From an uncultured archaeon (GTDB lineage Archaea > Halobacteriota > Methanosarcinia > Methanosarcinales > Methanoperedenaceae): DNA of 43,030 nt. The notes below the pieces were generated by a model, which did no database searches, was not told where the DNA came from, and worked only from the letters and a program-made list of their open reading frames with translations. The DNA lies in contig CABMII010000008.1 of the NCBI GenBank assembly GCA_902386255.1, positions 1-43,030 of the forward strand. The letters run 5' to 3'. Position numbers and translations under genes: made by a program. Below, piece after piece: positions 2,126-6,344 of this stretch (the first letter of the stretch is position 1; each line of letters starts with the position of its first letter).

Positions 2126-2398
2126 ATGCCAAAAATAATAGTAAAGCTCTTTGCCAATTTCAGGGAATTCACGGGGACGAAGGAGCTTGAAACAGACGGC
2201 ATTACAGTCAGAGAGATTCTCGGGATTCTCTGCAAAAAGTTCCCGGGATTTGAAAAAATGCTTTTCAAAGGAAAGAGCCTGCAGCCTTACGTCAATGTCT
2301 TTTTAAATGGACAGAATATTCTTGAGTCCGGCGGACTGGATGCAGTTATCAATGCGGGCGATGAACTCGCGATTTTCCCTCCTGTGTCGGGTGGCTGA
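2126..2398 (+). CDS. Ubiquitin-like small archaeal modifier / MoaD-family sulfur carrier
   Basis: A 90-residue beta-grasp protein starting MPKIIVKLFANFREFTG and ending in PPVSGG. The C-terminal Gly-Gly is the residue pair that is adenylated and then thiocarboxylated (MoaD role in molybdopterin synthesis) or joined to lysines (SAMP protein modification) in this family. The ALIFPPVSGG-type ending is typical for both MoaD and SAMP1. Its stop codon shares one base with the start codon of moeA, so the two are translationally coupled. That coupling favours a role in molybdenum/tungsten pterin cofactor synthesis, possibly for the aldehyde oxidoreductase at 27783. A second role as a protein modifier cannot be excluded. 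Confidence 0.9.
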   Translation: MPKIIVKLFANFREFTGTKELETDGITVREILGILCKKFPGFEKMLFKGKSLQPYVNVFLNGQNILESGGLDAVINAGDELAIFPPVSGG

Positions 2399-3576
2399 TG
2401 TTCAGGCAAAGAATGAATGCCGATGAGGCAAAGGAACTATTTTTAAATGCATTTGCTCCTCTTTCGGACACCGAAAAACTGCCTATCGAGGATTGCGACT
2501 GCAGGATTATTGCAGAAAATATCACTGCCGGCATGGATGTGCCCCATTACCGCCGCGCAGCGATGGATGGTTTTGCGGTCAGGGCAGGCGATACGCTTGG
2601 GGCTGGAGCCAATTCCCCGGTGATTCTCAAACTGGCGCAATCTATTGAAAACGGGACATGCGTAAGGGTACATACAGGCTCGCCGATACCGGAAGGCGCC
2701 GATGCGGTCGTGATGCTGGAAGATGCGGATTTGCGGGATGATAAGGTTGAGATATTTTCCCAACTCCATCCCGGGAAAAATGTGGGTGAAACCGGAGAGG
2801 ATATCCGGAAAGGGGAGGTTATTCTGAAAGAAGGGCACAGGCTCCGTCCCTGCGATATAGCAGTTCTTGCAGCGCTGGGCATCAGGGATATTCCGGTCTT
2901 CAGGAAGCCTCTTGTAGTGGTAATTCCCACAGGCGAAGAACTCGTTTCGAGGGATAACCCGGTTCTGGGGGAAGGGGAAGTCTATGAAACTAACGGATTG
3001 ATGGCTGCGCTTTATATAAGGAAATGGGGCGGCGCTTCGAGGCTGCTTGATATAGTAAAAGACGACCCTGAAAAGATAAAAGATGCGATTTTCTCTAATC
3101 TCGATGCAGATATGATTATCACAAGCGGCGGAACGTCTGTGGGAAAACGCGATTATGTTCCGGGCGTAATCGGTTCGTTGGGAGATTTACTCATCCACGG
3201 CGTGGGTATAAGCCCGGGCAAGCCCACGGCGCTTGGTATTATAAACGGCAAACCTGTGGTATGCATGCCCGGCTATCCGGTCGCAGGTATCATGGCGCTT
3301 TTCTTTTTTGCAAAGGCGGCTCTCAGGAAGCTGGGACATATACAGGATGAGGAGGACAGGAAAGTTCGTGCTGTATTGTCAGGAAAAATACCCGGAAGAA
3401 CCGGATATAAAACATTTGCCCGCGTCAAACTTGAAAAATGCGAGGCTATCCCTCTTGCAACATCGGGCGCAGGGATTTTGAGTTCTGTTTCGAAAGCAGA
3501 CGGTTTTGTTATTATCCCGGAGAATGTGGAGGGTTATGATAAAGGGGAAGAGGTTGAGGTAGTGTTAATCGAATGA
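2398..3576 (+). CDS. moeA: Molybdopterin molybdenumtransferase MoeA
   Basis: A 392-residue protein, the usual length of MoeA, which inserts molybdate (or tungstate) into adenylylated molybdopterin in the cytoplasm. Seen in order: an N-terminal linker segment with PHYRRAAMDGFAV near residue 50 (the conserved MDG(F/Y)A motif), the VHTGSPIPEGADAVV segment near residue 95, the MoCF/gephyrin-E fold with PTGEEL near residue 180 and TSGGTSVGKRDY near 240, GKPTALG near 277 and VCMPGYPVA near 288, followed by the C-terminal beta domain. The start codon overlaps the stop of the upstream SAMP/MoaD gene by one base. No other pterin-cofactor genes are in the window. Archaea often carry two MoeA paralogues, possibly one for Mo and one for W; which metal this one handles cannot be told. 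Confidence 0.95.
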   Translation: MFRQRMNADEAKELFLNAFAPLSDTEKLPIEDCDCRIIAENITAGMDVPHYRRAAMDGFAVRAGDTLGAGANSPVILKLAQSIENGTCVRVHTGSPIPEGADAVVMLEDADLRDDKVEIFSQLHPGKNVGETGEDIRKGEVILKEGHRLRPCDIAVLAALGIRDIPVFRKPLVVVIPTGEELVSRDNPVLGEGEVYETNGLMAALYIRKWGGASRLLDIVKDDPEKIKDAIFSNLDADMIITSGGTSVGKRDYVPGVIGSLGDLLIHGVGISPGKPTALGIINGKPVVCMPGYPVAGIMALFFFAKAALRKLGHIQDEEDRKVRAVLSGKIPGRTGYKTFARVKLEKCEAIPLATSGAGILSSVSKADGFVIIPENVEGYDKGEEVEVVLIE

Positions 3577-3601: not shown

Positions 3602-3634
3602 AAATATTTAATTAGTCAACATACATATGTTGAC
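3602..3634 (+). promoter_or_regulatory. TATA box and palindromic operator before the 3653 gene
   Basis: An AT-rich TATA-like stretch (AAATATTTAATTA, 3602-3614) is followed at 3615-3634 by GTCAACATACATATGTTGAC, a palindrome with perfect 9-bp arms around a two-base centre. The same 20-mer with one base changed lies at 5914-5933 on the other strand, directly after the TATA box of the HTH regulator gene. The palindrome occupies the stretch between the TATA box and the expected transcription start, a position where a bound protein would block initiation. Inference: operator for the regulator encoded at 5465-5911. Confidence 0.75.
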
Positions 3635-3652: not shown

Positions 3653-3904
3653 ATGACAAAAGGTTCAGGTTCTGGACAACATGGCACCTTAACAGCATCG
3701 AGTATGAAAAATAGAGAGCTCTTCTTTGTTACAGGCATAATAGCGATAGTGATTGGGCTCTATTTGCTAATTTTTGTGCAATCAATAGGAATAGACTTTG
3801 GTGGCCATAATATTATCAAGATATCGACTATATTTGATGGAGTGTTCCTGACTATAATGGGAATTGCAATAGTAATTGCATCATCAAGAGACTGGGACTC
3901 ATAA
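3653..3904 (+). CDS. Small two-helix membrane protein, operator-controlled
   Basis: An 83-residue protein of unknown family. It has two hydrophobic segments (about residues 24-42 and 60-77) joined by a short polar loop with GIDFGGHN. A polar Gly/Ser-rich stretch of about 17 residues precedes the first helix; the in-frame ATG at 3704 would remove it. Neither start has a clear ribosome binding site, but the ATG at 3653 lies about 15-20 bases after the expected transcription start, so a short-leader message is likely. The gene faces, tail to tail, the three-gene operon 5911-3956 that carries the matching operator. A partner role in the same membrane process is inferred from the shared operator only. 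Confidence 0.7.
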   Translation: MTKGSGSGQHGTLTASSMKNRELFFVTGIIAIVIGLYLLIFVQSIGIDFGGHNIIKISTIFDGVFLTIMGIAIVIASSRDWDS

Positions 3905-3955: not shown

Positions 3956-4171
3956 TTAAACTAATGAGCTTTTCCAGATGTAATCTGTTTTTATAACGGG
4001 AATCAGCCTGTATCTAACAAGCGAAATCATCCTGCCTTCTATAAATCTGACATAAACGTACGGTATCAAAAAGAGCAAAGAAAAAACAAATACCCATGTG
4101 ATTATATCCAAAGGTGTTGCAGGCTCGAACCAATCCGGATAAGCCTTTTTAAAAGTTTCAACGTCGTACAT
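3956..4171 (-). CDS. 71-residue membrane protein, third gene of the operator-linked operon
   Basis: A short protein of no family I recognise. A polar N-terminus (MYDVETFKKAYPDWFEPATP) leads into one hydrophobic segment at about residues 22-42, followed by a basic tail with several arginines, which suggests the tail stays in the cytoplasm. It lies 28 bp downstream of the STT3-like membrane protein on the same strand with no obvious promoter between them, so co-transcription is likely. A role as a small accessory subunit of the larger membrane protein is a guess from position. Confidence 0.65.
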   Translation of the reverse strand: MYDVETFKKAYPDWFEPATPLDIITWVFVFSLLFLIPYVYVRFIEGRMISLVRYRLIPVIKTDYIWKSSLV

Positions 4172-4199: not shown

Positions 4200-5468
4200 T
4201 TATTTTAGTTTATAAATTATAACATCCTTATTTTCGAATATTTTATCGAAATATTTGAACTCCGAACCGCTGTTGAATTTATATCCCATCGTTGGCTTGA
4301 TAATTTTCTCAAAATAATCCCCAGTGGTTTTAATATCCAGGTTCTGTGGATTAAAGTCCGGGTTGGCGGTAAACACCATTACCCCGAGCAGGTCGTTCAT
4401 TCGCTGCCTCGATATGTACACCAAATCAGCTCCGTATTTCTCGGCAATGCCCTTTGCTACATCCTCCGAGTCCGTGGCGAAAAACCTGGAGACATCTGCC
4501 ACTTTCTCATCAGGCTCGAATTTGTCGTATAATGATGCAGGTCTTGCGATTGTCATCTTGATAGCTTCCGATGCGTAGCTGATAACAGGTTCCTTACCTG
4601 CTGCCTTGATTTCAAGTTCAAAATCCCACCATGCCAGAACCTTGCCGCCTTCTTTGCTCTTCAGGAACTGCATCGCTTCGAAGGTATCTTTCGAAATGGG
4701 ATGCCCTGTAGTATCGCTTGAATCTATGAAGTATGGATACATGCTTGACATGCCAAACAAGGAACCCCACGAAGCACCCGGTTCTATCTTGTAAATTTTG
4801 ACATCTCCGAATTCCCCGGCGAGCATTGAATTTTTTTGGTTGTTCAAATATAGATAATAAGCACCGAGAGACGCGAACACGACAATAATAACGAGCAAAG
4901 TTGCGGTGAGGAAGCCTTTTTTCTTTTCCCCGGCCGGTTTGCTGAAAAAAGTAAGGATGTTTGGTATGGCTACAATGAGCGTGAAAAGCAGCAGTGTCAC
5001 CAGCCCGAAACTGTAGTAGTTGTAGAGCTTATCAAAAAACATTGATAGATAGTTGAACTCAGATGAGACAAGAAACTGGCTCAGATACAGGAAAAATCCG
5101 GCTAACAGGGCAAGGTTTACAGCCGCCAGTATCCTGTGGACATTGGCTGATTTTACGAAATTAAAGAAAATAATCAGGGAAGATATGCCTATTGCCAAAA
5201 GTATCCCGGATGAAATGATGTTTATATCCATTCCCCACCACGGGAAAATCTCTCGCTTTGCCAGTACCCAGAGCGCTGTGGATATCAGCCAGACCCCAAA
5301 CACCAGATGCAGAGCGCCAAGAAATCCCCTGAAACCCATGCCTTTTATTTTGTCTATATACTTTCCTTCATACGATACCATATATATTTCCTCCTTTTTG
5401 TTTACAAATGCAGCATTCGGGCACCAGCCCATCATTTTTCTTATTTTTTCAGTTATATTTATCGTCAT
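4200..5468 (-). CDS. Membrane protein: DUF1673-like N-terminus, five helices, STT3/AglB-like soluble domain
   Basis: A 422-residue protein of unusual composition. Residues 1-19 (MTINITEKIRKMMGWCPNA) match the N-terminal signature I know from DUF1673 proteins of Methanosarcina. Then come about five membrane helices (roughly 46-70, 82-104, 113-135, 152-175, 187-207). From residue 260 the soluble part reads like the domain after the membrane region of archaeal oligosaccharyltransferase AglB/STT3: EAMQFLKS, then VLAWWDFELEIKAAGKEP at 277-294 (compare the WWDYG motif), SRFFATDSEDVAKGIAEKYG near 327-346, and a DLVYIS strand. The N-terminal catalytic membrane half of a real STT3, with its acidic metal ligands, is absent and the protein is about half STT3 length. 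It is not expected to be an active transferase alone. Its start overlaps the regulator stop by 4 bp (ATGA), so the two are coupled. Domain assignment is by eye. Confidence 0.75.
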   Translation of the reverse strand: MTINITEKIRKMMGWCPNAAFVNKKEEIYMVSYEGKYIDKIKGMGFRGFLGALHLVFGVWLISTALWVLAKREIFPWWGMDINIISSGILLAIGISSLIIFFNFVKSANVHRILAAVNLALLAGFFLYLSQFLVSSEFNYLSMFFDKLYNYYSFGLVTLLLFTLIVAIPNILTFFSKPAGEKKKGFLTATLLVIIVVFASLGAYYLYLNNQKNSMLAGEFGDVKIYKIEPGASWGSLFGMSSMYPYFIDSSDTTGHPISKDTFEAMQFLKSKEGGKVLAWWDFELEIKAAGKEPVISYASEAIKMTIARPASLYDKFEPDEKVADVSRFFATDSEDVAKGIAEKYGADLVYISRQRMNDLLGVMVFTANPDFNPQNLDIKTTGDYFEKIIKPTMGYKFNSGSEFKYFDKIFENKDVIIYKLK

Positions 5469-5911
5469 GCCATATCCCTCAGCTTCCCGAACAGTTCATC
5501 CGCCAGTTTCGTAGGGTCGTCAGTTTTCTCAAGCTTGAGCTTCATCTCGTCAGCAAAGTCCCACAGCAACTCAATGCACTGCGTATATCTGTTGCATGCG
5601 CCGCAGTCACCTTCGTGCTCGTACCATACTTGCATTCCATGCCTGGCAGATACGAAAATAATGGCGCTGGCATTAAACGGCACTGAATGCCCGAACAGGA
5701 TGCCGCGCTCAGAGTTCACCCTTTCCACTTCTATCTGGTTTGAGTGCGCCATCTCAAGCATTGTCTTTTCTATCCTTTCATCCATGGTAATGAGCGCTCT
5801 TGACACTGCCTTCTTGGATATATCGAATGAGCGCGCTATATTTATATTGGGAAGACCGCCGCGCCGCAGCTTCCAGAACTCAAACTGCTTGTCGTTCAAA
5901 GGCAGAAACAT
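5465..5911 (-). CDS. Tfx-like HTH transcriptional regulator with a C-terminal Cys cluster
   Basis: A 148-residue protein. The N-terminal part (about residues 4-48: LNDKQFEFWKLRRGGL then NIARSFDISKKAVSRAL) is a LuxR/Tfx-type helix-turn-helix in which the recognition helix is SKKAVSRALITMDE. The remainder contains CGACNRYTQC near residues 107-116, three cysteines in a C-x2-C-x5-C pattern that could bind metal or sense redox. Tfx is an archaeal activator of the molybdenum formylmethanofuran dehydrogenase operon, but similarity here is only to the HTH and the size. Its own promoter carries the palindrome at 5914-5933, ending three bases before the start codon, so autoregulation is likely. First gene of a three-gene operon running to 3956. 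Confidence 0.75.
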   Translation of the reverse strand: MFLPLNDKQFEFWKLRRGGLPNINIARSFDISKKAVSRALITMDERIEKTMLEMAHSNQIEVERVNSERGILFGHSVPFNASAIIFVSARHGMQVWYEHEGDCGACNRYTQCIELLWDFADEMKLKLEKTDDPTKLADELFGKLRDMA

Positions 5912-5913
5912 AT

Positions 5914-5945
5914 GTCAACATATGTATATTGACTATTTATATTTT
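5914..5945 (-). promoter_or_regulatory. TATA box and palindromic operator of the regulator operon
   Basis: Read on the minus strand, AAATATAAATA (5945-5934) is followed directly by a 20-mer, GTCAATATACATATGTTGAC (5933-5914), which equals the operator at 3615-3634 except for one base, so 19 of 20 positions match. The TATA box to operator spacing is the same at both sites. The start codon (5911) follows two bases later, so the message is probably nearly leaderless and the operator covers the initiation region. A further CATATG block overlaps the start codon. Confidence 0.75.
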
Positions 5946-6014: not shown

Positions 6015-6082
6015 ATAAACGCTCATTCTGCCACAGGAATCTGGTTTAACATCATTAATCGAAAAACAGTTATTAGTAGAAA

Positions 6083-6169
6083 CGACGAGAGGGGGACTTG
6101 AACCCCCGAGTTCCTTGTGGGAACACAGGGTTAGCAACCCTGCGCCATACCGGGCTTGGCTATCTCGTC
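6083..6169 (-). tRNA. tRNA-Ser (anticodon GCT)
   Basis: On the minus strand the acceptor arm GACGAGA (from 6169) pairs with TCTCGTC (6090-6084) and the discriminator base is G at 6083. The anticodon stem CAGGG/CCCTG encloses the loop TTGCTAA, giving anticodon GCT for AGC/AGT serine codons. The long variable arm (GTTCCCACAAGGAAC) is that of a class II tRNA, and the T arm carries GGGGG-TTCAAGT-CCCCC. CCA is not encoded and there is no intron in the anticodon loop. The substrate of a serine enzyme such as SerS at 34415. Confidence 0.95.
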
Positions 6170-6344
6170 AATCCGGAATGATGACTGTATCCATCATTTA
6201 GAATAAGATTTCGGGTATTCCTCTAATCTACTGTTTGCTATTTAACACTTTTTACCTGTTTTGTAATTTATAAATATTCAGCCCTATATTAGTAATTTAT
6301 CAGCAAGAATAGCATTACCACGCTTGTGTTCTTTGCGCCTGATT

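Follow-up and report, generated by a model that had tools for sequence, protein, structure and literature searches.

The window analyzed here is a 43,030-nucleotide stretch of DNA from an uncultured, methane-oxidizing member of the Methanoperedenaceae, the genome of which spans 2.6 Mb and has Candidatus Methanoperedens as its nearest named relatives. On its minus strand, an HTH regulator gene is followed, with a 4-bp overlap, by an open reading frame encoding a 422-residue protein that starts with MTINITEKIRKMMGWCPNA, continues through five hydrophobic helices, and carries VLAWWDFELEIKAAGKEP and SRFFATDSEDVAKGIAEKYG near its C-terminus. An earlier sequence-only reading had reported an ORF at exactly this position, with the same helices and C-terminal motifs, and the present analysis confirms both these observations and the reality of the gene.

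4200..5468 (-): gene of the membrane protein chimera, which joins the MGWCP motif, five helices, and the STT3/AglB core; ORF with a 22-member family and purifying selection
5394..5468 (-): MGWCP motif, residues 1-25, the sole part in common with DUF1673; hhalign E 2.5e-14 to MGWCP proteins
4827..5336 (-): five transmembrane helices, residues ~45-214, from hydropathy and the structural model; negative by hhalign
4203..4763 (-): STT3/AglB central-core (CC) domain, residues 236-422, from sequence profile, profile-profile comparison, and fold
4623..4631 (-): WWD, residues 280-282, part of the WWDYG motif of the Ser/Thr pocket; invariant in the family alignment
4377..4400 (-): equivalent of the DK/MI motif, M357-x2-L360-x3-M364, from alignment position
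5465..5911 (-): gene of a 148-residue Tfx/EnfR-like HTH regulator

The membrane protein has orthologues (66-88% identity) in 13 further genomes of its genus and homologues with 37-55% identity in other families of the order; the family alignment comprises 22 full-length homologues (37-88% identity, across the order). Relative to the closest relative, dN/dS (NG86) is ~0.11 in the helices and ~0.08 in the STT3-like domain, the latter value indicating that the gene is under purifying selection. A few orthologues (L024, L026, and L131) are broken.

Residues ~236-422 constitute an oligosaccharyltransferase (OST) central-core domain, an assignment that is well supported. A search of the family profile against all PDB chains returned eight matches at E<1, every one of them an OST catalytic subunit; the best was the C-terminal domain of A. 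fulgidus AglB (3vgp, E 1.4e-4), followed by human STT3A, and the matches span residues 236-420. Profile-profile comparison with 29 AglBs gave E 3.8e-8 and a probability of 95%, against a maximum of 1.2% for 40 column shuffles and 0.1% for the reversed alignment. The AlphaFold model of the protein (mean pLDDT 78.8, mostly 65-96 from residue 241) has 3vu0 as its best Foldseek match (E 2.3e-5, probability 1.00, TM 0.74 by target), followed by ten matches that are all AglB or C-mannosyltransferase entries. Genuine AglBs are also recovered when the family profile is searched outward, with per-genome E-values of 2e-7 to 2e-5. The E-values of the core matches are modest because the domain has diverged, and a profile was needed to obtain them: a single-sequence phmmer search of the 422-residue protein against the PDB found nothing significant (best E 0.42). 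An OTOP2 match to the helices in a single-sequence search was absent with the profile, and an NCBIfam match to FlhF (E 0.08) was attributed to chance. The proposal that the C-terminal part corresponds to the soluble domain of STT3/AglB is thus borne out.

The acceptor-recognition motifs of the domain are partly retained. WWDYG contributes to the Ser/Thr pocket (PMC3703281); in the family alignment, WWD is present in 22/22 sequences, Tyr in 11/22, and Gly in 3/22, and the YG is not kept in the window's member. At the DK/MI position, the window's member reads MxxLxxxM, with the Lys/Ile of the motif not kept; the third signature residue is Met or Ile in all 22 homologues, and a deeper relative (L222) bears a textbook DxxKxxxI at this position. 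No Pfam match to PF02516, the multi-span GT-C membrane domain with the DXD motifs, was found in the 422-residue protein. The catalytic membrane half is thus absent, as had been supposed, and without it glycan transfer by the protein is not expected.

The other end of the protein has a different affiliation. Its motif, of the form [RK]KxMGWCPN, is conserved in 167 distinct proteins of a set chosen by GWCP, although the score of the whole protein against DUF1673 (PF07895), 20.1 bits, lies below the gathering cut-off of 30.4. Nearly every MGWCP motif has one Cys, the exception being L025 with GWRP. A DUF1673-like N-terminus had been suggested for this protein; the suggestion stands for the motif of residues ~1-25 but does not extend to the helices, for which hhalign ruled out homology to those of DUF1673 (probability 0.6-2.7) and found only the motif. 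The helices are likewise dissimilar to the AglB membrane domain (hhalign probability 0.6-0.7), and the idea of a truncated STT3 was rejected on this ground. Because they match neither DUF1673 nor STT3, the protein is best described as an OST core grafted onto an MGWCP membrane module; it is a three-part chimera of the MGWCP motif, a private five-helix membrane part, and the OST core. Clustering of MGWCP proteins by their remaining sequence is blurred by helix similarity and gives no count of such types.

An N-in, C-out topology is suggested by the odd helix count and the loop charges; it would place the core outside, as in AglB. The N-terminal part of the model is of low confidence (pLDDT about 43). 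Three minimal relatives (L217, L218, and L219) consist of the MGWCP motif, one helix, and the core, with nothing else, and thereby support a receptor-like layout.

The HTH gene is present in 70/150 genomes of the order, including all 27 genomes that carry the STT3-core gene (that of the window among them), and in 73/394 of the phylum. Among 42 distinct loci of the order, the gene after the HTH gene encodes an MGWCP protein in 34; among the rest are loci with broken genes and others with the MGWCP gene further along. The HTH protein scores 15 bits against TIGR00721 (Tfx), far under the cut-off of 60.25 and over the HTH region only, and the best Foldseek match of its model is EnfR (8hno, E 0.057, probability 0.94); the model is thus suggestive of the eighth-note fold and of a resemblance to EnfR, a dimeric repressor of the Tfx family. 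H99, C103, C106, and C112 are invariant in the HTH protein, and it is conceivable that these residues and the Cys of MGWCP share a metal site or a disulfide. Upstream of the HTH gene and around the operon, the following elements were located.

5914..5933 (-): predicted operator, a 20-bp inverted repeat 2 nt before the HTH start codon
5934..5941 (-): TATA box TATAAATA, abutting the operator; read from the sequence, with the same layout in relatives
3956..4171 (-): small membrane protein of 71 residues, downstream of the 422-residue protein gene; a homologue lies between the receptor gene and AglB in L006/L114
3615..3634 (+): second, perfect operator copy, GTCAACATACATATGTTGAC, from an operator search of the genome
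3637..3714 (+): decayed start of a second HTH gene, MFRHVNDKRFRFW and then a stop, read from the sequence and compared with MFLPLNDKQFEFW
3704..3904 (+): ORF of a small membrane protein with two helices, following the second operator; a similar small gene stands behind the second operator in L122

The operator consensus is GTCAACATACATATGTTGAC, and its spacing to the HTH start codon is almost always 2 nt. Every one of the 70 distinct HTH genes whose upstream DNA extends far enough has the inverted repeat, where ~0.001 would be expected per stretch, making the identification of the operator well supported. In the window's whole genome there are two good sites, 5914-5933 and 3615-3634. The small membrane protein behind the second site probably belongs to the regulon; the arrangement of second operator, HTH-start fossil, and small membrane gene is also seen in L122. 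In three relatives (L010, L012, and L016), the STT3-core gene lies apart from the HTH gene yet still has the operator and the initial codons of the HTH gene fused to its front, and this retention suggests that the predicted operator is used in trans. In G121, a genome of Methanosarcina type, an operator copy with a decayed HTH start stands ahead of an ABC exporter gene (L188:4259-6335), beside a second HTH locus. Directly upstream of the window's operon, on the same strand, lies a tRNA-Ser (GCT) gene (6082-6170, -). A MoeA-like gene (2398-3576, +), convergent with the operon, is a neighbor in several genomes of the genus (L004, L015, L191, and L197), a pointer to a chromosomal and vertically kept locus.

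A paralogous type of HTH protein, with the recognition helix RQGVSQ (L207, L208, L211, and L215), is accompanied in 4/4 cases by the operator GTAAA...TTTAC and by GLCR or GLCP in the membrane protein, whereas 56 of the 57 others for which a motif was found go with GWCP. Recognition helix, operator, and membrane-protein motif thus appear to change together in the four divergent paralogues; as these come from related families, the covariation is suggestive and no proof.

Links to OST genes come from relatives rather than from the window, where no OST gene lies near the operon; the AglB genes of the same genome have no operator within three mismatches on their contigs. A compact STT3 of ~575 residues (PF02516 plus STT3 core) is found inside the HTH operon in four genomes (G098, G088, G080, and G056, split over two contig ends in the last). 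G106 has a full AglB after the STT3-core gene, and in G030, operators stand 2 nt before the start of AglB and 13 nt before a compact STT3 gene, on two different contigs. Most genomes with the STT3-core gene have no linked OST gene, although gene absence is weak evidence here because many of the genomes are MAGs. In three of the compact STT3s, the Asp of the first motif is missing (NDAY replaced by NPAY, NAPY, or NAAY; G098, G088, and G080), and these proteins may be pseudoenzymes; it is kept in those of G104, G030, G020, and G056. Elsewhere in the phylum, CC-only proteins without MGWCP occur in a single-anchor type with WWDYA and DxxKxxxI and in a type with a lipoprotein-like signal. They suggest that detached OST domains form a class not described before, apparently with three or more modes of anchoring.

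L122:8268-9995, L131:3243-4970, and L191:1497-3227: Asp-less compact STT3 genes
L225-L231 and L233: CC-only proteins on single-helix anchors, in other archaeal families
L232, L235, and L237: CC-only proteins behind lipoprotein-like signals, in other archaeal families

The explanation that fits these data best is that the protein is a non-catalytic membrane receptor, with the OST core outside and MGWCP inside, encoded in one autoregulated operon with a Tfx/EnfR-like repressor; we would accept this reading about as readily as doubt it. The five non-STT3 helices would hold the acceptor-recognition core in the extracytoplasmic space and the MGWCP N-terminus in the cytoplasm, while the repressor, as a dimer, would bind the inverted repeat between the TATA box and the start codon. 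Outside, the core may bind a Ser/Thr-containing acceptor, such as a peptide resembling a sequon or a surface protein that is under-glycosylated, upon which the MGWCP end would capture or release the repressor inside. The output would be an altered level of operon expression, extending in some relatives to OST genes. Contact between MGWCP and the repressor is proposed from the coupling within the operon and from the motif/operator covariation. Speaking against this explanation are the weak Tfx assignment, the YG and Lys/Ile positions that this member does not keep, the window's own genome with neither an OST gene near the operon nor an operator at its AglB genes, and the low-confidence N-terminal model. 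A sensing or accessory role with binding of acceptor peptides had been put forward before, in a reading that did not include the coupled Tfx-like regulator gene or its operator, and we keep it as the most natural one; topology, ligand, and direction of signaling are inferred.

The main rival is an accessory subunit of OST, which at the membrane would capture acceptor sequons or nascent surface proteins and pass them to AglB or compact STT3 in trans, MGWCP and the HTH protein setting the dosage only. Much of the acceptor pocket is kept, in six relatives OST genes share the operon or stand behind such an operator, and the CC-only proteins manage without MGWCP; yet the same anchor and HTH gene accompany many unrelated membrane proteins, and the linked OST gene is lacking in most receptor-bearing genomes, so that we regard this role as rather unlikely. 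Less likely still is the reading in which the Tfx-like protein activates transcription, or responds through its conserved Cys to a metal or redox signal of its own, while the membrane protein is just its target gene, with an unrelated function. The invariant His and Cys residues would suit such a regulator, and operator autoregulation requires no membrane partner. However, throughout the phylum the motif goes together with the HTH gene and differs when the HTH paralogue does, and the overlap of the operator with the probable start of transcription fits repression.

Two further readings carry little weight. The protein could be a decoy or protective surface protein, its false OST acceptor site blocking viral or foreign proteins within variable, defense-like arrays: MGWCP/DUF1673 proteins are indeed expanded and variable, and they are listed in archaeal "dark matter islands" (PMC4158269). 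This seems very improbable, given that the PADLOC defense library yielded no match, that no relatives were found in viral contigs (leaving a mobile or viral origin without support), and that the locus is chromosomal with conserved neighbors. A functionless relic of a degenerate STT3 would account for the missing catalytic half and the few broken orthologues, but is hardly credible for a protein with helices unrelated to STT3, low dN/dS, an invariant WWD, and a conserved operon and operator.

The receptor reading finds an analogy of layout in the bacterial membrane anti-sigma and BlaR/MecR pairs, which combine an extracytoplasmic sensor, a membrane part, a short cytoplasmic part, and a DNA-binding partner in an autoregulated operon. 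No sequence relation is claimed, and no protease, kinase, or sigma factor was seen here. In a limited literature check, we came across no description of an OST recognition domain standing alone, nor of any archaeal system that senses N-glycosylation; a sensor role of the detached domain, if true, would be a new use of it. Against the C-terminal central core of AglB-S1/S2 (PDB 3vgp, 3vu0), the 422-residue protein is alike in fold, motif order, WWD, the DK/MI position on the kinked helix, and the C-terminal end, but it lacks the GT-C membrane domain and DXD motifs, does not keep the YG, has Leu where Lys/Ile would stand, and is anchored by five unrelated helices. With DUF1673 (PF07895; MGWCP membrane proteins arCOG06827 / SC.00027) it shares the N-terminal MGWCP motif, the membrane anchoring, and an operon with the same HTH gene, whereas its helices are not homologous by profile, an OST core is added, and its score is below the Pfam cut-off. 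The proposed function, if true, would be the first role for DUF1673/MGWCP proteins, an expanded archaeal family with function so far unknown.

EnfR, of the Tfx family, acts as a dimer on an inverted repeat near a start codon, and its authors expect an antirepressor, none being known to them (PMC10570040). The window's HTH protein looks, from its model, like EnfR/Tfx (PDB 8hno; PMC10570040) in its two short helices, long stem helix, and alpha+beta head, and its gene is preceded by an inverted repeat close to the start codon; it differs in its TIGR00721 score, in a head with an invariant His-x3-Cys-x2-Cys-x5-Cys, in a 20-bp rather than a 36-bp site, and in being encoded with membrane partners. 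By a tentative and rather doubtful extension, archaea of the phylum would use detached OST cores as surface receptors for sequons, the MGWCP-anchored form signaling through a phylum-wide system of membrane protein and Tfx repressor, with MGWCP as the missing antirepressor and N-glycosylation under feedback control. For the regulator described here, the partners form a defined class, the operator is a defined 20-bp site, and the peptides can be tested.
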